DNA of 44,651 nt from a virus, in IMG/VR virus record IMGVR_UViG_3300046721_000156, positions 1 to 44,651 of that record, one strand, 5' to 3'. The stretch's first letter is position 1. Each line of letters begins with the position of its first letter. Below, one piece after another: positions 2,764 through 39,949 of this stretch. The translations under genes were made by a program, and so were the position numbers. The notes below the pieces were generated by a model that did not search any database, was not told the origin of the DNA, and was given only the letters and a program-made list of their open reading frames with translations.

Positions 2764-2933
2764 TGCCGTTCAAGAGTGCAGCCCAACGAGGCTATCTACA
2801 CGCCCACCCCGAGATTCTCGGGAAGAAGGGTCTAGCTGAGTGGGATGCTGCGTCTAAAGGGCAGAAAGTTCCAGAGCACGTAAAGAAATCCGCTTACTCG
2901 CACGCGCGAGAAGCACGCAAGAAGGAACAATAA
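2763..2933 (+). CDS. Small basic phage protein of the MPFKSxAQRxYL type (56 aa)
   Basis: The gene is joined at both ends by TAATG overlaps (2761-2765 and 2931-2935), so translation is coupled to both neighbours. It begins MPFKSAAQRGYLHAHPEI and ends SAYSHAREARKKEQ, strongly basic. Short proteins starting MPFKS-AQR-YL are familiar in phage head-gene regions; their function is not known to me. The tail motif YSHAREAR recurs in the protein at 4801-5049, suggesting a shared short interaction motif. Confidence 0.75.
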   Translation: MPFKSAAQRGYLHAHPEILGKKGLAEWDAASKGQKVPEHVKKSAYSHAREARKKEQ

Positions 2934-3832
2934 TGGCAAAGGACTGGCCGGTAATCATAAGCGGCCTGAACTCCCTGCTCTCCCGGGTCGGACCCATCTG
3001 GCCGGACAGCACGAAGCTATCAGGTTTTGCATCTGACGGCCCGTACCACTGCGCCAATTGTGAGTATTTGAACAAGGACCGCAACCGCTGCAATCAGGAA
3101 GTGATGAAGGCCGACCCGGAAGTTCAGCACGACGAGAAGGGTCTTGCGATCATCACCGACCCGGAGCGCCAGTGCTGTGAGTTCGTTGAGCCTGTGAAAG
3201 CAAAACAGACTCAGCCGCAAGGCGACCAACTAGTAGCCCTCTTCATACGTCACGGCGAGACCGGGATGAATAAAGAGAATCGCTTCCGCGGACAAATGGA
3301 AATCCCGTTGAATAACAACGGCCGCCAACAAGCCCTCGACGTCCGTCGTTTCCTAGTAGGGAAGCAGCTTGGCGCAGCGTTCCGCTCCAGCAAGGACCGC
3401 ACGCGGGAGACCGCCGACCTAGTCTTGGGACCGAACAAGGCGAAAGAGGTCAAGAACTTCGACGCTTTGAACGTCGGTAAATTCTCCGGCGAGAAGAAGA
3501 CAGACGAGAACATCAAAGAAATCAAGCACTACCAAGAGTACCCAGATCAGAAGATTCCGGGCGGGGAGCGCATCAACGATTTTCGAGCGCGAACGAACCC
3601 AGAGATTAAGATGGCAATTGAGGAAGGCGAGAAGACGGGAAAGCCGTCCGTATCGTTTGTCCACAGTTCGACCATCCACCAAGTCAGCCACTTGCTTCAC
3701 AACGACCACAACGCAGTCAAGGTTAGACCGGGCGGCATCGTCGGCGTCTACCGACGCTCGAACGGCTCGCTTTACGCTCGCGCTCTTCTACACGAGAGCA
3801 CCAGCAAGCAAGATCAGCAGATGATGAGTTAA
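2933..3832 (+). CDS. Histidine phosphatase (phosphoglycerate mutase-like) with N-terminal cysteine cluster
   Basis: The C-terminal two thirds is a histidine phosphatase superfamily domain: RHGET at residues 106-110 carries the catalytic His107, SSKDRTRETA supplies the next conserved arginine region, GGERINDF and VHSSTIHQV (His244) match the later acidic and second-histidine motifs. The N-terminal part has C40, C43, C53 and C81-C82 in an arrangement typical of a small metal-binding module (HCANCEYL...RCNQEV...QCCEF) that I associate with phage proteins. The fusion suggests a metal-stabilised or DNA- or protein-bound phosphatase. The substrate is unknown. TAATG coupling links it to the upstream gene. 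Confidence 0.85.
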   Translation: MAKDWPVIISGLNSLLSRVGPIWPDSTKLSGFASDGPYHCANCEYLNKDRNRCNQEVMKADPEVQHDEKGLAIITDPERQCCEFVEPVKAKQTQPQGDQLVALFIRHGETGMNKENRFRGQMEIPLNNNGRQQALDVRRFLVGKQLGAAFRSSKDRTRETADLVLGPNKAKEVKNFDALNVGKFSGEKKTDENIKEIKHYQEYPDQKIPGGERINDFRARTNPEIKMAIEEGEKTGKPSVSFVHSSTIHQVSHLLHNDHNAVKVRPGGIVGVYRRSNGSLYARALLHESTSKQDQQMMS

Positions 3833-16120: not shown

Positions 16121-16148
16121 GACAATAGACTTTTGATTGGAGAATACA

Positions 16149-16835
16149 ATGGAAGCTGAAATCACGCAGTTGAAGCTGTTAATAGAAGTGGCCTTAAGAG
16201 AGGTCGCAGAGTTTCGCAAAGTTCACGTATCCCGTAGAGGTCCGGAAGGTCTTCGCGGGCCTCAAGGTTTTCAAGGACCGGTCGGCTCTCAAGGAGCAGC
16301 AGGCCCGGTTGGTTCGGTCGGACCAGCGGGCGAGCCCGGCCCCCAAGGCGCGCCGGGTGTCTCGAACATCCCCGGCCCGAAGGGTGACCGAGGCGAGCGT
16401 GGATTGCAGGGCGAGAAAGGCGAACGAGGTGAGCAGGGAGAAGTAGGCCCTCGCGGCTTCGATGGTGAAGATGGCGCGGACGGCGTAGACGGCGAACGTG
16501 GTTTACAGGGTCCTCAAGGTGAAAGAGGTCTACAAGGACCTCAAGGCGCGAAGGGTGAAATGGGCAGTGTCGGTCCTCAAGGACCAGTAGGCCCTCACGG
16601 TCTGGCCGGACCTCAAGGTCCGTTCGGTCCTCAAGGCACTCCCGGCCTCCGCGGATTCCAAGGTGAGAAGGGTGAAGCTGGCCCCCAAGGCGAGAAGGGT
16701 GAGAAGGGCGACCAAGGCGAGCAAGGTGAACAAGGTTACCCCGGTCCTCGCGGCCCTCGCGGCGATATCGGAGTAGGCGAAGCACAGATTCAAAAGATTG
16801 TGTTGGAAATTCTCAAACAGCACAAGTTAATCTAA
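16149..16835 (+). CDS. Collagen-like trimeric fibre protein (228 aa)
   Basis: ATG 16149 is chosen over a TTG at 16137 because GGAG lies between them at normal spacing. After a helical N-terminus (EAEITQLKLLIEVALREV), residues about 36-209 are 59 Gly-X-Y triplets with only one Gly missing, at NIP in the 15th. Triplets such as GEK, GER, GPQ and GLQ are favourable for bacterial triple helices without hydroxyproline. The C-terminus EAQIQKIVLEILKQ is an amphipathic helix likely to trimerise. Such proteins form stiff rods; here it would be a fibre shaft or a decoration linking to host surfaces. Confidence 0.88.
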   Translation: MEAEITQLKLLIEVALREVAEFRKVHVSRRGPEGLRGPQGFQGPVGSQGAAGPVGSVGPAGEPGPQGAPGVSNIPGPKGDRGERGLQGEKGERGEQGEVGPRGFDGEDGADGVDGERGLQGPQGERGLQGPQGAKGEMGSVGPQGPVGPHGLAGPQGPFGPQGTPGLRGFQGEKGEAGPQGEKGEKGDQGEQGEQGYPGPRGPRGDIGVGEAQIQKIVLEILKQHKLI

Positions 16836-30332: not shown

Positions 30333-30359
30333 TTGCCTCCGGGCAAAGGAACAACTGAA

Positions 30360-32585
30360 ATGGCGATTGTACAACCGAACGCACCACAAGACAGCAGCCA
30401 GCTTCCGGCACAAGGAATAGCACCCGGAGCGGGCGCGCCTTCAATCTTGGCGGGCCTCCCCGGCCAGCAACAGCCTGCGCCAGAGCAAGGCGCTTTGGAG
30501 CAGATGGTCTCCGGCTATTTGAAGCACATCACCACGATTGCCGACCAATCCGATTTGACCAAGAAGACCAATGCTCAAGTGGCTGCGTCTCAAGCGGCCG
30601 CAAACAAGCCAGTGGTTGAGGGCCAACCAGCGGCTGCACCCCGCCCCGGCTCCTTCGGTGACAAACTGTCCAGCGCGGTAAACGCGTGGGGCTCCGACGC
30701 GGCGCATGCTACCGACCGTCCGGGCGGATGGTTGAGCGGTATCGCAAACACATTGAACGCTCGCGAGATGAGAATGGCTCAAGAGCAGAAGGACCAAGCG
30801 TTGCTCGCGAAGACACAAGCCGAGACAGTCATGTTGCACCGCAACGCGTATCTTCAAGAACTCCCAATCCGAGAAGGGATGTACAAGGCCAACGAAGATT
30901 ACGTCGGCACCAAGCGTTTGAACCACGACGTGACCGAAGACATTACTCATGACGAGTTGATGAAGCGCTCCAAGGAAAAGGATTTCGCGGCCAAGTATTT
31001 GGTGCGCGCGACCGGCGAAGAGCCAGTATTGGGCGCAGATGGTATGCCGACCAAGGACAAGAACGGCATCCCGGTTACGATACCGAAGTACGCGATCATC
31101 ACCAGAGCCACGAAAGACGGTCAGCCGGACAACCACACGCTGACTGCAGACAACGCTGCGGAGATGAAGAAGTACCTAGGCAGCGGACTGCCAGCTAACA
31201 CGACCTTGACAGGCCCCCAGTGGGACGCGTTGAACGTACAGTTAGTGAACGCGCGCAACGCTGTCAACACTTTGGAAAACGGAAACGAGAAGCCGTTGTC
31301 GGAAGGGCAGATGAAGTCCATCTCTCCGTACTTGAACGACCCGACCATTCAGTCGGCCATCGCCCACGTACCGGGCAGCCCGTACGCTGGAATCAAGGAA
31401 TATCAGAAGAACGCAGACGACCAGATCGACGCGTTCCAACAGCTTGCGGACAGAGCGAAGGAACAGAAGGACCAAGGGACCTACGATCAAGCGACCGCGA
31501 AGATTTCAGAGATCAGACAGGAACAGAGCAAGGTTGCCCAGTTCGCCGCATCCGGGGCAATCGACCCGAAGCAGATCGCTGCGTACGACAAGAAGAACGA
31601 GGAGCAAGTCGGCTGGATTGACAAGATGTTGCACGACCCGAACGAGATGGCAGGCGAGAAGTCTGTCACCGCGTTGTCCCAGTTGCAGACCGCGCTGGAT
31701 TCTGCGACCGACCCGAAGGTCCGCGTGAAGTTGACGCAGGCCATCGCTACCGCCAAGAACGCGCATCAAGCGTACCGCGACGATTTGGAAGCGAAGGCAA
31801 AGGCCGACCAGATGGCGAAGCAAGGCGACCCGAAGGAAGCTGGCCGATTGTTGGCTGGCGGTTTGTTAACTTTGGATGACTTGAAGACTCGCGGAACGAC
31901 CGCGCAATTCATTCAGCAAGCTACCGACGCAGCCGTCGCTATCGACAAGGATTACAATCCTGCGGACGAGAAGAACTTCGAACACGTAGCTAAGTCTGCC
32001 ACAATGGCAAGATTCTTTGGAGCCAGCCGCTCGATGATGGAGAAGGGCGGAACCACGGATATCGTGTACAACCTAGGCCAGAGAATCCCAGACAATGGTA
32101 TGCCAGTACTGAACAAGCTGGAAGACTGGGCCAAGTTGGCAGCAGGTAAGGGTCCTCTGTCCGGATACGCATCATCTATCTTGGGTCTAGCTGACGACTA
32201 CTCGAAGGTCATGGGCGGCGGTAACGCAACTGACTCCGCTAGAGACCACGCGCTCTCTTTGATGGGCGCGGCCTTGACTAAGGCTCAGCGTCTGGAATCG
32301 CTCCAAGCGTTGTTGGCTGACGTTGGTTCTCAACAACATGGTATGATCGGTAAGAACCGATTCATGCAACGCGAGTACAACGACTTCGAACGTTCGAATT
32401 TGACACCGAAGATCACCCCTCCGGAAGCACCGGCAGCGGGTCAAGGTCAAGCAACCATCGCCCAGCCGAAGGCTGCAGCCGCGAAGCCGACCGGTAAAAA
32501 GGTCGGAGAGAAGTTCACGCAGGGCGGCAACGAATACACTATCACCTCAGTTGACAAGAATGGAAACGTAACGGGAGCAGAGTAA
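30360..32585 (+). CDS. Internal virion protein C-like (T7 gp15 position, 741 aa)
   Basis: ATG 30360 follows AAAGGAACAACTGA; a TTG nine codons upstream is less likely. The protein is almost entirely helical and charged, with coiled-coil stretches (MRMAQEQKDQALLAKTQAE), an Ala/Pro/Gln-rich N-terminus (QPAPEQGALEQMVSG), and a short beta end GNEYTITSVDKNGNVTG. T7 gp15 is a helical core protein of 747 residues forming the ejection tunnel, so length and place agree. Its TAA overlaps the next ATG (TAATG). Confidence 0.75.
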   Translation: MAIVQPNAPQDSSQLPAQGIAPGAGAPSILAGLPGQQQPAPEQGALEQMVSGYLKHITTIADQSDLTKKTNAQVAASQAAANKPVVEGQPAAAPRPGSFGDKLSSAVNAWGSDAAHATDRPGGWLSGIANTLNAREMRMAQEQKDQALLAKTQAETVMLHRNAYLQELPIREGMYKANEDYVGTKRLNHDVTEDITHDELMKRSKEKDFAAKYLVRATGEEPVLGADGMPTKDKNGIPVTIPKYAIITRATKDGQPDNHTLTADNAAEMKKYLGSGLPANTTLTGPQWDALNVQLVNARNAVNTLENGNEKPLSEGQMKSISPYLNDPTIQSAIAHVPGSPYAGIKEYQKNADDQIDAFQQLADRAKEQKDQGTYDQATAKISEIRQEQSKVAQFAASGAIDPKQIAAYDKKNEEQVGWIDKMLHDPNEMAGEKSVTALSQLQTALDSATDPKVRVKLTQAIATAKNAHQAYRDDLEAKAKADQMAKQGDPKEAGRLLAGGLLTLDDLKTRGTTAQFIQQATDAAVAIDKDYNPADEKNFEHVAKSATMARFFGASRSMMEKGGTTDIVYNLGQRIPDNGMPVLNKLEDWAKLAAGKGPLSGYASSILGLADDYSKVMGGGNATDSARDHALSLMGAALTKAQRLESLQALLADVGSQQHGMIGKNRFMQREYNDFERSNLTPKITPPEAPAAGQGQATIAQPKAAAAKPTGKKVGEKFTQGGNEYTITSVDKNGNVTGAE

Positions 32586-35500
32586 TGGCCGACTTTACGC
32601 CAGAAGAGAAGCCGCAAGATATCGGACAAACTGGACCGTCGACCGACATTCAATCGCCTTACCCGGGCGCTACGAAAGTTGAAGATGGTATCGCGTACGA
32701 CGCAGCCGGGAAGCAGCTAGGACCGGTTGACGAGAACACGATGAAGGCTCCGGGCGCTGCGCCTAAGCCGAAGTGGAACCCGGACGCGCCGATGCAGTTC
32801 GCGAACGAGAAGACAGAAGCTGCGGGGAAGCCGAAACCAAAGTGGGACCCGAAGGCTCCGATGCAGTTTGCACCGCCAGCCGCCGAAGAGGGCAATATCG
32901 AGATTCCGGAAGTGAAGCCGGAAGGATTTTGGGGACACATCAAGGCCGCCGTTGCGGGACCGAACACAGCCTTTAATACTCCGGAAGGGGAAGCACACGA
33001 GCAAGAGCGAGAAGGATTGTGGGATATTCTCACCGGAGATATCAAAAAGGGTTTTGGAGAAGTTTGGGACGCGAACAAGATTGACGCAAATCACATCATC
33101 CCGAACTCACCAGTAGAGTGGGCTATCCGCCAATTCGACCCAGACTTCCGCGGTCAAGCCACCAAGGAAGCGCAAGCTGCGTACAAGGAAAAGAATCCGA
33201 ATCCGGGCGAGAAGCCTCTTGTTGACATCGCACAGTTCGTCGACATGAAGAAGCACCCGATTGCGAAGGCATTGACTGAAGTTGCACAAGGTTTCACCTC
33301 TCCAGAAAACGTTGCGATCATGTACGGAACCGGCGGCTTAGGCTTGCTCGGAAAAGTGCCGCAAGCATTCCGCGCGTACCGCGTAACACAGCGGCTAATC
33401 TCTGCGGGATTTGCTTACCAGTCTTTGGAGAGCGCGTACGAACACTCGAAGGCATTCAAGGAAGCGTACGACGCAGGCGACGAGACGAAGGCCGAATACG
33501 AGTTGACACACGCCGTGGCTGCGGGAGTAATCACCGCCCAAGCCGCTACTCACGCTGCGGAGGGGAAGTACAAGGTTGGCGGAAAGACCGTTGAAGTCAA
33601 GCCACTAGTAGAGCCGTCTCCGACCGAGAAGAAGGTTATCGGCGCAGTCACAAACGTAATCGGAAAGGCTGCGGAACCGGCCACCAACTTCGCAAAGGAA
33701 AAACTGCAAGCCGTAACCGACCGTGTCGGTGAGGCCATCGGCAAGACTTCCGATTTCGATACTGCGGTCGGCCGCGTAGCGAACATGATGGGTAAGAAAG
33801 CAGGACCGGAGTTCCTAGAGACGGTCAAGACTGCCAGCGATGACTTGAAAGAGATCATCAACAAGGACACCGCCAACAAGATCAAGGACCCGCAAACTGC
33901 GGCAGATGCGATCACCCAGCACCTGCAATCAGATATCGAAGCGCCTTTGCAGCGCGAAGCTGGCGCTACCAAGGACTCTGTGGAGCCGGTTGTTCCTGAC
34001 TTCGGGAAGAGATTGCGTGAGCGTCTAGACAAGTTCTTCGACGACAACGCAGGCCAGTACGGGAACAACGAGCAAGAAGAAGCGATCAAGCAACGCATCA
34101 TCGACCGCTTGACCCGCAACCACGACCTTGGAAACGGCGTAGTCTTGGACCGCGACCCGAACCTGTACGAGGCGGAGAATGCACGTCGAGGATTGAACAA
34201 GTCGTCCGGAGACGTATTCGAGCACGGCACCACTTCTGGATACCGCGCCGCATCTGCGGAAGCCGCGAACTTCATGCGTGAAGTGATCGACGAGGCTTAC
34301 AAGGCCAAGGGCATCAAGGGAGTACCGGAAGCGCGCGCGAAGGAAGCTGCGCTGATTAAGGTTAAGGAAGCGTTGGAAGCGGCACAAGGCTCTTTCGAGA
34401 AGCAGCAAGGCACTCCTTGGCTTGCGAAGTTGTTCAGCACCGGCAAGCTGCTCGGTATGCTCGGCACGATGGGTGCCCACTTTATGAGCAGCGATGCTCT
34501 CTCGGGCGCGCTGGCTGCGGGGACTATTTGGAAGGGCGTCCATGAAGAGAACGCAACCAACATCGAGAAGAACCTAGACCGTATGAGAGAGTTGGCTGGC
34601 CGTGATAAGAGTGCGACCGCCACAACCCCGGACGTTGGAGGAGCACCTCCTCCGACTCAAGGACCTGCAGGAACAGGTCCGTTCACACCTCGTGGCACCC
34701 CGGAACCGGGAGAAGAAGAGCCACTACCGGCTAACGTGCCGCCTAGACCGGAACCACCGCAACCCGCTACGCGTCCTGCGGTCAACCACAGCATGAACGG
34801 TGTGTTGTCTTCGTACTTCAACCAAGGCAGAACTACCGACCCGGTTGAGTACAAGAACATGGTCGACAAGTTCAACGTCGAGTACGCCAACATGAAGGCC
34901 CAAGTCGTTATGGCGAAGGCGGAAGGGCGAGAACTCACGGAGCAGCAACAGAAGGAGTGGGACCGCGCGAACGTTGTAAACGAGAAGTTGAACAACGAAC
35001 TGACGAAGGAAGACGCTGCGTTAGAGAAGGAAAACCAGAAGCGCCAAGATCAGCACCAGAAAGAATTGAACAAGTGGAACGCGAAGCTGCAGCAAGAGAA
35101 GGCGAAGGCCGCTGCGGAGAAGGAAGCCAACACAGACGCCGAGTCTGCGGCGAAGAAGCAAGCTGAGGCTGAACGCGTGGCCGGAATCTTGGCTGATGAG
35201 CGAATAGCCCACAGCCCGATGATGAAGGCAACCGAACCGGCTACGCCTATCGAGGGTCTGGAAGGGCGCAGTTCGAAGCAAAACCACGAACACGAACACG
35301 GGCATATCGTCGCCGCGACTGCGGAAGGCTTGAACCCGGTAGCGTTCATCACGGACAAACACCCGACCGCAATCGAAGACAACGCTATGGCACAAGTCCA
35401 CACCGACCTTACCGGAATGGAGAGAGGCGGACGTGGTATTAAGCAGCGCGTTATAGCAGCATTGGGCGGAGCGGCGTGGGACGAAGTTCACCACGGGATG

Positions 35501-38500
35501 AAGCTGAGCCGCAATACGGGCGCTGGTTCCGATATCGCATTCGCTCGAAAACTGTTGCGCGAGAAGGCTGGATTGCAGGGAGCCCGACTTGACAAAGTGT
35601 TCGATGCGCTGTATGATATAGCCAAGGAACATGTCTCAAATCCGGAGGCTATCGCGCTGGTACAAGCCAACGCGCCTTTAAGAGAAGCCGGGTTGCACGA
35701 GAATCACCACATGTCCCCGGGACGTATGGAAGAATATGTCAAGAAACTACAGGGAGTATTCAAAAATGGCGAAACACCAACCACCGAAGGAGTTCATGAA
35801 GGGCCTGCCGATGAAGGAGTACGAGGCGGAGAATCCGATGAGCCCGGAGGAAGTGAAGAAGAACGGGCTGGAACTGCTGCAAGTCCACGCGCCGAAGCTG
35901 TACGAACGGGCGATGAAGGCGGCGAAGCCGGAGCAGGACCAGAGCGAGTAAGTCCGAAGTTCAAGGGCGGCACGAACGCAGCCGGTAACGAAGCGACTGC
36001 GCGGAAGGCCACCGCGGAGCAGAAGGTCCAATCTTTGGTCGACGACAACGCTCGACTAAAGGAATTGCTGCGTTCGAACAAAGGCACTCCGGAAGAGCGT
36101 GATGCCGCGCTCCGCCGCATGGAAGAGAACAACACGCTGATTAACGAAGTGGGCAAGGTGGATAAGTTCGACCAAGCTAACCTAATGCAGTCTGACAAGA
36201 TGAACGACGAGATGGAAGATGAGCCTACCGTCATGAGTCGGGCGGACTTCAAAAAGAACGTATTGCACGCCTACGACACTATGCATCAAACACCACAAGC
36301 TGCGGTACGCCGTGTGGTTCAAGAGGCTAAGGCACGAGGTGTAGAGGTTCCAGAAGAGTATTACCGAGACAAGGGCAACCTCCAAGCGCCTCCGGAGCGT
36401 TCAACCGGCGACAAAGAACTAGACGAGAAAATCAGAAAGGGTGGGGCAGTACCCGCAGGTCGAATGGGTCCGCTCGCTATGTTCCACCACCCAGAGACCG
36501 GCAGCACCCTCGCGTTGAAGCCGGAAGATATCACACCTGAGACCGTTAAGGAGCACCTCGGCCACAGCAAGGAAGCATTCACCCAAGGCGACATCCGCAA
36601 CACCGCTCGTGAATACAACGCTGCGCGCAATATGCCGGAAGTCAACCCAGCGCCGGTCATGGAAGACCCACGCATCAACCAGATTGCGGACACATACGAT
36701 AAGTTGGAGCACTCTCCGAACGACCCGAAGGTCAAGGCATCTTACGACGCGTTCAAGAAAGAGTTGGACGATCAGTACGACGCATTAGAGAAGTCCGGAT
36801 TCAAGTTCGACACCTCCAAGGAAGACCCGTATCCATCGTATGAGGCTATGCGGCAGGATATTCTCCGCAACAAGCACCTCACCGCTTGGGAGGGTGCTGC
36901 ACCGCCTGCGGACCACCCGCTGGCTGAGCGCGACCCGAAGACCGGGATGACCTACAATGAAAAGTTCCGACTAGTACATGATGTGTTAGGACATGCCGCA
37001 CATGATGCAGACTTCTCCGGCAACGGCGAAGAGTCTGCGTGGAACTACCACCGCCAGATGTTCTCTCCGGAAGCCCAGCCTGCGTTGGCTGCGGAGACGC
37101 GCGGCCAAGTGGCCTCGTTCACCAAGAACGGAAAGTTCCCAGAGAGTCAGAAGGCCGTGCTGCTACCAGACGAGTTCAACAAACGTCCGGAAGAAATCCC
37201 AGACACGGAAGTCGACAAAGGTAATCTCTCCAAGGCCAAGGCCGTAGAGGGTCTTGATAAGATGCGGGAGAAGTACGGAGAGACAGATGATGCGTCCACA
37301 GCCAGAAACGGCCACATCTTCATCACCCCGGAAGGTAAGTTTGTTGACGTCGGCGATCACTCCGACGCAATCGCAACTCACACTGGATACACGAACGCCA
37401 AGTCTACTCCTCGTTGGGACAACCGTCCAGAGTTTATCAACAAGTCTGGCGCGGTTCGCTCTTACAGCTACAACAGCCGAGGCGGAGAGAATTTATCGTT
37501 CTCGGTTCCAAAGGACGGCGTAAATGAAGCGCAAGCTAACGCTATGCGCCGCGCTGTCAAAGAAGGATTGAGCCGAAACGGAAACTTGATTGTGGAGCGG
37601 GCGGACGTAACCGGCGACACTTACGGAGAGCTAAGTCGAAAGAAAGAGTTCCCGAAGGACGGGGACGTTGATCGAATGCTGCGAGAAATTGGCGCTCATC
37701 CGGGCGGCGGAACAACACCGGAAGGACCGAAGCCGGGCGAGAAGGTTCGCGGCGCGGTCAACACCGAGAATACTGCGGCACAAGCGGCTGCGGAGAATGC
37801 TAACCGTCAGCGTGAAGCCGAGTACAACAAGAACTACACACCGGGCGGACGATTGAAGCTGAACCTAGATAAAGACGATATCAAGCCGGAAAACTTGAAC
37901 GTCGACTTGGAGAAGCACCCCGCTGGTGGGATTGACCCGTTCACCGGCAGCATGGAGAGCAAGCGTTACGGCGTGGAGATTGCGCCGGAACAGCGTGAAG
38001 TGCTCGACCACAAGCCGACCCCGGCGGACTTCCACCGATTCGCGGTGGAGAATATCGACACTTTGAAGCAACACCCAGACGTTAAGATTGGCTGGGACAC
38101 GCTGGGCGGTAAGCCCGAGATGAACATCGGCGTCTCGACCGACAACTTGGACGCTGCGAAGAACATTGGCGCAAAGTTGGACCAGCGTTCGGTTTGGGAC
38201 ACTCAGAAGCAAGAAGAGGTTCCGACCGGCGGCAAGGGAGAGCAGCGCGAGTTCCCTGACTACCCGATGAGTGCGCGTCTTGCGGACCTAGACAAGGGTA
38301 ACCTCACTAAGGACGACGATTTCACTGTTCGGGGAGAAACTGCGAATGTGGGGCCAGCGGAATCACTAACGAACCCAAAACAGTTCCGTGATAAAATACA
38401 AGATGTTTCTACCCTTTCGCCAAGAGAGCAAGTGGCAGAGTTAACAGATATGCTTGATAGAGCGAGACGTAATTATAGTGAATCGACTCGTCAAAAGGCT

Positions 38501-39949
38501 AACTATCTGCGAGATTATTGGAGAGGCAACGTCAACATCGTTAAAGATGCTCTAGAGGCCGCTAGAATTGCCGCAACAGAGCAGAAAAAAGTTGACCAAC
38601 GGCACGCTAGTTTTGTATCGCCCGGTGAGCCGATTCCGTCAAATCCCATCTACCAAGGACCGCGTTCTCCCATCAACAAACAAGCTGCTCTCAATACATA
38701 TTCACCGATAGACCTAGACAAGGGCAACTTGAAGTCTCCCAAGGGCTCCTCGGTTCCTTTGATGGAAGAGCCTTTGGAAGTGGAAGGCACCGGAGAGAAG
38801 GGCCGCATCTCCACGCTGGATGTGGCGCAAGCGTTGAACGAATACAGCAAGGAAAAGAATCCTGCGTTACAGCCGGGCGCTGAACCGGAAGAGATGGTGA
38901 AGCGCGCGAAGAAGATTGCGGAAGACGAGGCCAAGTACCAGATGGCATCCGGCAAGACCGGGACCGCATGGTACACCGACGAGATGAAGGACCACGATAA
39001 GGCGTTGACGGAGGGTCGTCCGGAGTTGTTGACCGGGGAGAATATCGACACTCCGACACCGTGGCCTCACACGGCAAAGTTGAGCATCTTCAAGGCCGCG
39101 GAGGCCATCCTATCTTCCGGCCAGAAGCCATACGGCAACTTTAAGTCTGCCGTGAAGGCTTGGGACGCGTACAACGAGACCGGCGAATTTCCACGCTTGA
39201 ACCCGGCGACTGGAAAGTCGTGGGGTCCTCGCGGAGAGGCTGCGTACGGCAACGCTCTCGATATGTTGAACCATCTCATCAAGGACAAGGGCGAGAAGGG
39301 CGCAGCAGAGTGGCTGCTGAACGACCACCCTGTTTCGGAATTGAAGCAATACAAGCCGAAGGGCGTGAAGGGAGCTAAGAACGATATGCGTCCCGGCGCG
39401 ATCATCCTCGGTGAGAAGCGTGGACCGTTCATGCAAAACCTCCACGGTATCGAGGCCGCGTTCACGGCCGACATGTGGGTATCCCGTACTTGGAACCGTT
39501 GGATGGGTACGATGGAGTTCGGCAAGGACAAAGACGGCGAGATGGAAATCAAGTCCGACTCCCCCCGTAACGGAGCGGAGCGCGACTTGATGAAGAAGTC
39601 GTTCGCGGAGACTGCACAAAAGTTAGGTTTAACGACGTCTTCACTACAAGCCGTCCTCTGGTACTACGAGCAAGCGCTTTACACGCGCCACGGAATACCG
39701 AAGGAATCTTGGTCGTTCCGAGATGCGGCACAACGTGCGATGAAGGAAGCGGCCATGCCTCCGGAGGCGGAGCAAACCGGCTTCAACTTCGGCGCTAACG
39801 AGAAGCCTGCGTCACAAGGCGGGCTAAACTTCAACGCGAAAGAGAAGGGCGGACTCGGCAACTTAGGTAATATCCCAGTCGTGAAGAGCAAGTTCGTAGA
39901 CTTCAACAAGCCTATCGGAGGGGTGGACAAGAGCCCCTTGACAAAGTAA
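32585..39949 (+). CDS. Giant ejection/internal virion protein with M41-like peptidase signature (2454 aa)
   Basis: In the T7 gp16 slot, but about 1100 residues longer than T7 gp16. The N-terminus has two copies of PKWxPxAPMQFA (W64, W87). A zinc-protease signature HEHGH at 903-907 is followed by LGGAAWDE and NTGAGSDIAFA with D983, as in FtsH/M41 peptidases, where the third zinc ligand is that Asp about 77 residues downstream. A second module has HDVLGH (1465-1470), ESAWNYHRQMFSPEA and ETRGQ. A C-terminal module has GPFMQNLHG near 2280 and FTADMWVSRTWNRWMG. DKGNL occurs at 1262, 1544, 1903 and 2045. A transglycosylase motif like that of T7 gp16 was not seen. It is presumably ejected with DNA. 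Residues about 1061-1122 overlap an embedded gene in another frame. Confidence 0.85.
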   Translation: MADFTPEEKPQDIGQTGPSTDIQSPYPGATKVEDGIAYDAAGKQLGPVDENTMKAPGAAPKPKWNPDAPMQFANEKTEAAGKPKPKWDPKAPMQFAPPAAEEGNIEIPEVKPEGFWGHIKAAVAGPNTAFNTPEGEAHEQEREGLWDILTGDIKKGFGEVWDANKIDANHIIPNSPVEWAIRQFDPDFRGQATKEAQAAYKEKNPNPGEKPLVDIAQFVDMKKHPIAKALTEVAQGFTSPENVAIMYGTGGLGLLGKVPQAFRAYRVTQRLISAGFAYQSLESAYEHSKAFKEAYDAGDETKAEYELTHAVAAGVITAQAATHAAEGKYKVGGKTVEVKPLVEPSPTEKKVIGAVTNVIGKAAEPATNFAKEKLQAVTDRVGEAIGKTSDFDTAVGRVANMMGKKAGPEFLETVKTASDDLKEIINKDTANKIKDPQTAADAITQHLQSDIEAPLQREAGATKDSVEPVVPDFGKRLRERLDKFFDDNAGQYGNNEQEEAIKQRIIDRLTRNHDLGNGVVLDRDPNLYEAENARRGLNKSSGDVFEHGTTSGYRAASAEAANFMREVIDEAYKAKGIKGVPEARAKEAALIKVKEALEAAQGSFEKQQGTPWLAKLFSTGKLLGMLGTMGAHFMSSDALSGALAAGTIWKGVHEENATNIEKNLDRMRELAGRDKSATATTPDVGGAPPPTQGPAGTGPFTPRGTPEPGEEEPLPANVPPRPEPPQPATRPAVNHSMNGVLSSYFNQGRTTDPVEYKNMVDKFNVEYANMKAQVVMAKAEGRELTEQQQKEWDRANVVNEKLNNELTKEDAALEKENQKRQDQHQKELNKWNAKLQQEKAKAAAEKEANTDAESAAKKQAEAERVAGILADERIAHSPMMKATEPATPIEGLEGRSSKQNHEHEHGHIVAATAEGLNPVAFITDKHPTAIEDNAMAQVHTDLTGMERGGRGIKQRVIAALGGAAWDEVHHGMKLSRNTGAGSDIAFARKLLREKAGLQGARLDKVFDALYDIAKEHVSNPEAIALVQANAPLREAGLHENHHMSPGRMEEYVKKLQGVFKNGETPTTEGVHEGPADEGVRGGESDEPGGSEEERAGTAASPRAEAVRTGDEGGEAGAGPERVSPKFKGGTNAAGNEATARKATAEQKVQSLVDDNARLKELLRSNKGTPEERDAALRRMEENNTLINEVGKVDKFDQANLMQSDKMNDEMEDEPTVMSRADFKKNVLHAYDTMHQTPQAAVRRVVQEAKARGVEVPEEYYRDKGNLQAPPERSTGDKELDEKIRKGGAVPAGRMGPLAMFHHPETGSTLALKPEDITPETVKEHLGHSKEAFTQGDIRNTAREYNAARNMPEVNPAPVMEDPRINQIADTYDKLEHSPNDPKVKASYDAFKKELDDQYDALEKSGFKFDTSKEDPYPSYEAMRQDILRNKHLTAWEGAAPPADHPLAERDPKTGMTYNEKFRLVHDVLGHAAHDADFSGNGEESAWNYHRQMFSPEAQPALAAETRGQVASFTKNGKFPESQKAVLLPDEFNKRPEEIPDTEVDKGNLSKAKAVEGLDKMREKYGETDDASTARNGHIFITPEGKFVDVGDHSDAIATHTGYTNAKSTPRWDNRPEFINKSGAVRSYSYNSRGGENLSFSVPKDGVNEAQANAMRRAVKEGLSRNGNLIVERADVTGDTYGELSRKKEFPKDGDVDRMLREIGAHPGGGTTPEGPKPGEKVRGAVNTENTAAQAAAENANRQREAEYNKNYTPGGRLKLNLDKDDIKPENLNVDLEKHPAGGIDPFTGSMESKRYGVEIAPEQREVLDHKPTPADFHRFAVENIDTLKQHPDVKIGWDTLGGKPEMNIGVSTDNLDAAKNIGAKLDQRSVWDTQKQEEVPTGGKGEQREFPDYPMSARLADLDKGNLTKDDDFTVRGETANVGPAESLTNPKQFRDKIQDVSTLSPREQVAELTDMLDRARRNYSESTRQKANYLRDYWRGNVNIVKDALEAARIAATEQKKVDQRHASFVSPGEPIPSNPIYQGPRSPINKQAALNTYSPIDLDKGNLKSPKGSSVPLMEEPLEVEGTGEKGRISTLDVAQALNEYSKEKNPALQPGAEPEEMVKRAKKIAEDEAKYQMASGKTGTAWYTDEMKDHDKALTEGRPELLTGENIDTPTPWPHTAKLSIFKAAEAILSSGQKPYGNFKSAVKAWDAYNETGEFPRLNPATGKSWGPRGEAAYGNALDMLNHLIKDKGEKGAAEWLLNDHPVSELKQYKPKGVKGAKNDMRPGAIILGEKRGPFMQNLHGIEAAFTADMWVSRTWNRWMGTMEFGKDKDGEMEIKSDSPRNGAERDLMKKSFAETAQKLGLTTSSLQAVLWYYEQALYTRHGIPKESWSFRDAAQRAMKEAAMPPEAEQTGFNFGANEKPASQGGLNFNAKEKGGLGNLGNIPVVKSKFVDFNKPIGGVDKSPLTK
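35589..35617 (+). promoter_or_regulatory. Consensus promoter inside the giant gene
   Basis: TTGACA at 35589-35594, a 17-bp spacer, and TATGAT at 35612-35617: six of six and five of six consensus matches. The predicted start of transcription is about 140 bp before the ATG of the embedded gene. Its -35 region (CTTGACAAAGTG) resembles those of the promoters at 30289 and 39938 (each TTGACAAA), suggesting one promoter class. Confidence 0.8.
35766..35951 (+). CDS. Embedded overlapping gene in the +1 frame of the ejection protein gene (61 aa)
   Basis: An ATG with AGGGAG nine bases upstream opens a 61-codon frame wholly inside the giant gene. The peptide begins MAKHQPPKEFMKGLPMKEYE, continues with PMSPEEVKKNGLELLQVHAP and a helical KLYERAMKAAKPEQ end. 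Its codons use the GC-ending set of the phage (AAG, CTG, CCG, GCG), while the giant frame here reads a Gly/Glu/Pro low-complexity linker. Together with the upstream consensus promoter this argues for a genuine gene. Function unknown; charged, helical, no membrane span. Confidence 0.7.
   Translation: MAKHQPPKEFMKGLPMKEYEAENPMSPEEVKKNGLELLQVHAPKLYERAMKAAKPEQDQSE

Follow-up and report, generated by a model that had tools for sequence, protein, structure and literature searches.

What role might be played by a pentapeptide, DKGNL, that occurs four times within a single giant viral protein? The DNA analysed here (the window, 44,651 nucleotides in all) is an IMG/VR virus record that also encodes a terminase, a portal and a major head protein, and within its structural gene block the gene of the giant protein comes after a gene for 750 residues (30333-32585). 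The first-pass annotation had located four copies of DKGNL at residues 1262, 1544, 1903 and 2045 and a related LDKDDI at residue 1762, all of which are found at these residues and at the corresponding nucleotides. It had offered linkers, docking motifs or processing sites as possible roles, the processing perhaps being done by a protease within the giant protein itself. The gene and its junction peptides, referred to below as tags, are:

32585-39949, + strand: giant virion-type (polyvalent) protein of 2454 residues
36368-36382, + strand: tag 1, DKGNL, residues 1262-1266, just ahead of module X, modelled as coil or with low confidence
37214-37228, + strand: tag 2, DKGNL, residues 1544-1548, on the linker from module P to module B
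37868-37882, + strand: variant tag DKDDI (in LDKDDI), residues 1762-1766, before module A, aligned with EKSNL of the relative L002
38291-38305, + strand: tag 3, DKGNL, residues 1903-1907, adjoining the end of module A (RLADL|DKGNL)
38717-38731, + strand: tag 4, DKGNL, residues 2045-2049, immediately before module C
39926-39940, + strand: DKSPL, a possible weak variant which may be due to chance, residues 2448-2452, near the C-terminus

The composition of the protein predicts 0.0034 copies of DKGNL, as against the four seen. In 1,000 shuffles every pentamer stayed at three copies or fewer, and a pentamer with four copies turned up in only 2 of 2,000 sequences from a first-order Markov model and in 2 of 2,000 sequences shuffled locally. 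When all ORFs of at least 80 residues in the six frames of the window were searched with the pattern [DE]K[GSD][ND][LI], the five matches all fell in the giant protein. The copies are written with different codons, as the first-pass annotation had quoted them, and the synonymous differences (13 of 30) are close to the 14.7 expected under independent codon draws, while the DNA flanks of the four copies are unrelated (12-22 of 60 bases identical per flank). The repeat is therefore preserved as protein sequence, which bears out the protein-level selection that had been thought likely. Recent DNA duplication, considered as a source of the repeats, is ruled out by the codon test.

The tags are located between parts of the protein that can be delimited by homology. 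The relative L002, a protein of 2,050 residues, is about 61% identical in blocks that begin or end beside the DKGNL sites, and where DKGNL would stand it has ERSSV, MKSSL, EKSNL and EKSDI. Searches of IMG/VR with single modules recovered many giant proteins, and profile searches found the peptidase domain Z, then X, P, B, A and C, in differing orders and numbers across these relatives. Downstream of the peptidase, the modules of the window protein are:

36386-36580, + strand: module X, residues 1268-1332, from a profile of relatives
36593-37183, + strand: module P, residues 1337-1533, phrog_3170 (function unknown), E 3.5e-20, with a conserved HDxxGHxxH
37253-37705, + strand: module B, residues 1557-1707, from a profile of relatives
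37898-38293, + strand: module A, residues 1772-1903, from a profile of relatives
38732-39814, + strand: module C, residues 2050-2410, from a profile of relatives

Permuted module orders of this kind, in a protein encoded by a virus record with terminase, portal and major head protein, are what is expected of the polyvalent architecture. In an AlphaFold2 model of residues 1255-2454 (27-row alignment, mean pLDDT 68.4), all five sites (model residues 8-12, 290-294, 508-512, 649-653 and 791-795) lie within or at the edge of segments with pLDDT below 50, between folded modules, so that the tag-bearing segments are predicted to be flexible linkers. Both the homology block edges and the predicted structure thus agree with the earlier placement of the motifs between modules, and none is modelled in the middle of a fold, the outcome that the annotation had named as contradicting it. 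Of the 50 tags counted in 12 related proteins, 48 avoid the module interiors and 47 follow the peptidase on its C-terminal side.

Known families provide few clues to the modules themselves. No PDB match at E 0.001 was obtained for modules P, B, A and C when the 1,200-residue model was submitted to Foldseek, Pfam searches with the module rows detected DUF7178 in 3 of 27 members (E 0.0014), and the sole Pfam match of the whole giant protein was Adhesin_P1_N at E 0.079, below its cut-off. The phrog_3170 module (window 36593-37183; L008:1734-2300) occurs as a stand-alone protein in Streptomyces phage Dagobah and forms part of larger proteins in mycobacteriophages and in phages of Gordonia/Rhodococcus. 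A genome scan with module A, carried out for host assignment, found no relative.

About 870 residues precede the peptidase domain and constitute the N-terminal part of the giant protein. Its first ~46 residues (GIAYDAAGKQLGP, window 32585-32722), possibly a packaging or anchoring signal, resemble the N-terminus of L172 (52% over residues 7-46) and, by eye, those of L092, L017 and L014, in which the next ~800 residues are otherwise divergent. A short near-duplicate, PKPKWNPDAPMQFA and PKPKWDPKAPMQFA, is present at residues 60-96 (window 32762-32872). Elsewhere, the window carries two adjacent tRNA-Gln genes at its start (282-441, anticodons TTG and CTG), an ORF with an RHGET motif that reads as histidine-phosphatase-like (2933-3832) and, amid structural genes, a 232-residue collagen-like Gly-X-Y protein (16137-16835).

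The homologue motif search that had been suggested was carried out, and it was found that matching junctions in relatives hold recurrent tags which differ from phage to phage, a feature absent from the earlier reading. As judged from the sequences, each related phage carries its own tag. Recurrent junction peptides across relatives include E[KR]S[SND][LIV], ESQV, LKTNIKAE, KTNLKP, LSPQL, TKQ, IDLETG, ENPKLG and KPENPALS, and by protein the tags are LKTNIKAE (L173), KTNLKP (L181), L[SN]PQL (L175), TKQ (L172), ES[QE][VI] (L017, L092), [ST]Px[LA][DE]ARK (L182) and K[ILR][DS]L[PH]A (L180). At one orthologous junction, following RLxDL at the end of module A, the peptide is DKGNL, EKSDI, LKTNI, LSPQL or STKQS depending on the phage. 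A distantly related giant protein of about 3,065 residues (L005:1359-10559) contains RFSIDR three times and RYSIDR once, and one of these copies directly follows the phrog_3170 module, at the junction where the window protein has DKGNL 1544. No clear tag was seen in the peptidase-bearing relatives L012, L096 and L186, and the annotated giant proteins of Mel-JY33, ctQRb9 and ctEw122 showed no comparable recurrent tag; the feature is therefore not universal.

The tags in the first relatives were found partly by eye, with patterns also delimited by eye, and early linker statistics were weak. Neither the top-pair linker score (48/300) nor exact shared linker 4-mers (282 of 3,000 permutations) reached significance, exact linker 5-mers were significant only when the window protein was included, and an information-weighted linker statistic gave 1/2,000 with the window protein and a borderline 93/2,000 without it. 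Four relatives in a bait test were not significant, and a blind search for recurrent 6-mers in all the giant proteins was too insensitive, helical and repeat-like segments dominating its output. On account of these weak statistics 16 new loci were fetched via module X as a held-out set and analysed with the same information-weighted statistic and automatic domain assignment. Here, 17 same-protein linker pairs shared peptides as against 3.5±1.9 expected, the maximum in 100 within-linker shuffles being 9. The tags so obtained include DL[EA]TG four times in L195, NPKL four times in L200, KP[EA]NPALS three times in L209 and EQSN[IV] twice in L197; since L197 and L198 are related, as are L200, L201 and L209, the held-out tags amount to fewer than seven independent events. 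None of the new tags occurs in any other ORF of at least 80 residues of its own locus.

Every tagged protein also holds a metallopeptidase domain of the FtsH/M41 fold. In the window protein its features are:

35195-35767, + strand: peptidase domain Z, residues 871-1061, FtsH/M41-type fold by predicted structure
35291-35305, + strand: HEHGH (HExxH active-site motif), residues 903-907, from the sequence
35531-35533, + strand: Asp983, candidate third zinc ligand, its alignment column being invariant across all 16 peptidase rows

A model of residues 840-1110 (m5a087043d38b, 16 rows, mean pLDDT 83.6) was compared with known structures. The best PDB matches in Foldseek were all FtsH-family peptidases (E 7.5e-5), and VIA superposed the model on FtsH 3kds with a Z of 14.6 and an rmsd of 2.7 over 147 residues; in the VIA ranking the FtsH family and 5iqj stand clear, the next rows having Z of 3.9 or less. 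Domain Z is thus predicted to have the M41 peptidase fold, and the M41 motif and candidate third ligand are found in HEHGH 903-907 and Asp983, although some relatives have HDxxH or HEXXXH instead. The Pfam M41 family (PF01434) matched one of eight family members weakly (E 0.0024) and the window protein gave no match. No Pfam AAA match was obtained for the giant protein at E 1, which sets it apart from FtsH proper. The fold and the conserved ligands support the earlier suggestion of a protease in the same protein. The HEXXXH variant is seen in L095 and L197 and the HDxxH variant in L175, L200, L201, L204 and L209; in the latter group the catalytic Glu is replaced, and on this reading of the motif activity is doubtful. 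L200, L201, L204 and L209 have a second peptidase copy with HELGH, and two peptidase domains within one giant protein are seen in L172, L200, L201, L203, L204 and L209.

If the resident peptidase reads the tags, the two would be expected to vary together, and this is the pattern observed. For 17 non-redundant tagged proteins, with tags delimited by hand, the more alike two peptidases are, the more alike are their tags (Mantel r 0.63, p 0.0003), but no such correlation holds for the modules adjoining the tags (r for X 0.16, P 0.19, B -0.03, A -0.03, C 0.19). All five HDxxH peptidases are accompanied by [NSQ]Px[LF] tags, as against one of the 12 other proteins (Fisher p 0.001). In the window protein, module C is nearest to those of L092 and L017 (normalised similarity 0.81 and 0.77), whereas the tag resembles that of L002, whose peptidase is the closest to the window peptidase (0.70). 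In the initial set of 12 proteins this covariation depended on three clusters and was gone once these were pruned. Tag and peptidase belong to a single gene and have a common descent with the N-terminal region, so that lineage effects are only partly removed by the controls.

The main rival to cleavage is docking, whereby every linker would bind one partner, such as an ejected protein, the portal or tail channel, or a chaperone, with the modules packed or threaded in order and the partner coevolving with the tags. Exposed linkers, one tag per junction and one type of tag per phage fit this equally well, and the tags also track similarity of the N-terminal region (r 0.49). Partial correlations, however, favour the peptidase: with the N-terminal region controlled the tag-peptidase correlation is 0.48 (p 0.0005), whereas with the peptidase controlled the correlation with the N-terminal region falls to 0.17 (p 0.04). 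The HDxxH subtype of the peptidase also predicts the tag class, and no docking partner was identified. We therefore consider docking unlikely, though worth retaining. Of the three roles originally listed, the linker setting holds, processing is favoured by the tag-peptidase covariation and docking is kept as the rival.

Cleavage could also be carried out by another phage or host protease, for instance a prohead protease acting in trans as in SPN3US, since prohead proteases are established to read one motif per phage at many sites (PMC10052503). Such substrates end in Glu at P1 (xXE), but DKGNL and its sister tags do not, and apart from one antisense ORF the tags are confined to the giant ORF among ORFs of at least 80 residues in the loci. 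In the ten window proteins scanned with PHROGs, several of which were without any match, no protease was named, and the covariation is with the peptidase of the same chain, which leaves a trans-acting enzyme improbable. Slightly less probable still is that the tags are linker sequence that is neutral or linked to recombination, its copies having been propagated by duplication or gene conversion during the shuffling of modules. Module order is indeed permuted between relatives, and L172 has two copies with the same DNA sequence and a deficit of synonymous differences (13/45 vs 25.1 expected). In L173 (4/8 vs 4.7 expected) and L175 (10/13 vs 9.0), on the other hand, codons differ like independent draws, as they do in the window protein, where the flanks of the DKGNL copies are also unrelated; neutral linkers, moreover, would be expected to have diverged in their amino acids as well.

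The reading that we prefer is that the tags are probably junction sites read by the resident peptidase, from which modules are released. The chain would run from the N-terminal part through an ATPase-less metallopeptidase of FtsH/M41 type to folded modules on flexible linkers, each linker with a short tag (DKGNL here) that the peptidase would recognise and cut, so that the modules would come apart ahead of, during or after their delivery to the host. With a single enzyme having to read every junction, all tags of one protein would stay alike, and upon a shift in the preference of the peptidase, or the swapping in of a module, all junctions would follow, giving each phage lineage its own tag. 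From sequence and model we infer cleavage at the tag, the same-chain peptidase as the cutter, the bond cut and the timing. In many tags a small or polar residue is followed by an aliphatic one (N-L, D-I, Q-V, N-I), a pairing that would be suitable for a zincin whose P1' pocket is hydrophobic; TKQ and DLETG show no clear fit to this pattern. Taken as a whole, the account of the giant protein as a polyvalent protein of a tailed phage with self-processing is judged somewhat probable.

Several known systems share parts of this arrangement. RNA-virus polyproteins have an embedded protease and several similar junctions which evolve together with it. Their proteins are unrelated to those described here, which belong to dsDNA tailed phages and confine the arrangement to one structural or ejected protein. 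The same analogy was drawn by Iyer et al. 2017 (PMC5512222), who defined polyvalent proteins as large phage proteins with many shuffled domains, including zincin-type metallopeptidases as here, and predicted autoprocessing and domain release by the metallopeptidases. Phage P1 DdrB is processed, whereas the virion RNA polymerase of phage N4 has a peptidase domain and yet is packaged uncut, which counts against self-processing (PMC5512222). The HEXXXH form was already described there; however, no junction motif is described and the word 'linker' is absent from the text as searched. The polyvalent peptidase clades were regarded as not specifically related to previously defined zincin clades (PMC5512222), whereas domain Z matches FtsH/M41 by fold. 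With FtsH it shares the peptidase fold, HExxH and a distant Asp ligand; it differs in that FtsH has an AAA+ ATPase and in its weak Pfam M41 match (1/8). Prohead proteases likewise read one short phage-specific motif at several sites in internal head proteins, as exemplified by gp245 of the giant phage SPN3US with the motif AXE at 14 sites in nine proteins, but they are separate enzymes that cut after Glu and mostly strip N-terminal propeptides (PMC10052503). The tags described here, unlike prohead motifs, separate the modules of a single chain and differ from phage to phage.

Predicted self-processing is thus already known from 2017, while a tag code that covaries with the protein's own peptidase appears new, no report of lineage-specific, peptidase-linked junction tags in polyvalent proteins having been found in the open literature searched. 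Peptidase processing of polyvalent proteins has remained a prediction since then, without bench-ready cut sites for most of them, and the tags provide candidate cut sites, controls and a family of natural variants whose peptidases and tags change in concert. The chances are about even that these phages constitute a tailed-phage family with a true polyprotein, in which an embedded, ATPase-less FtsH-type peptidase would read a phage-specific code at every linker, modules would be freely exchanged and the junctions of newcomers would be converted to the resident tag. If confirmed, the peptidase-tag pairs would represent a natural set of orthogonal proteases, and the phages would follow an RNA-virus-like polyprotein logic by which many separate effectors are delivered from one gene.
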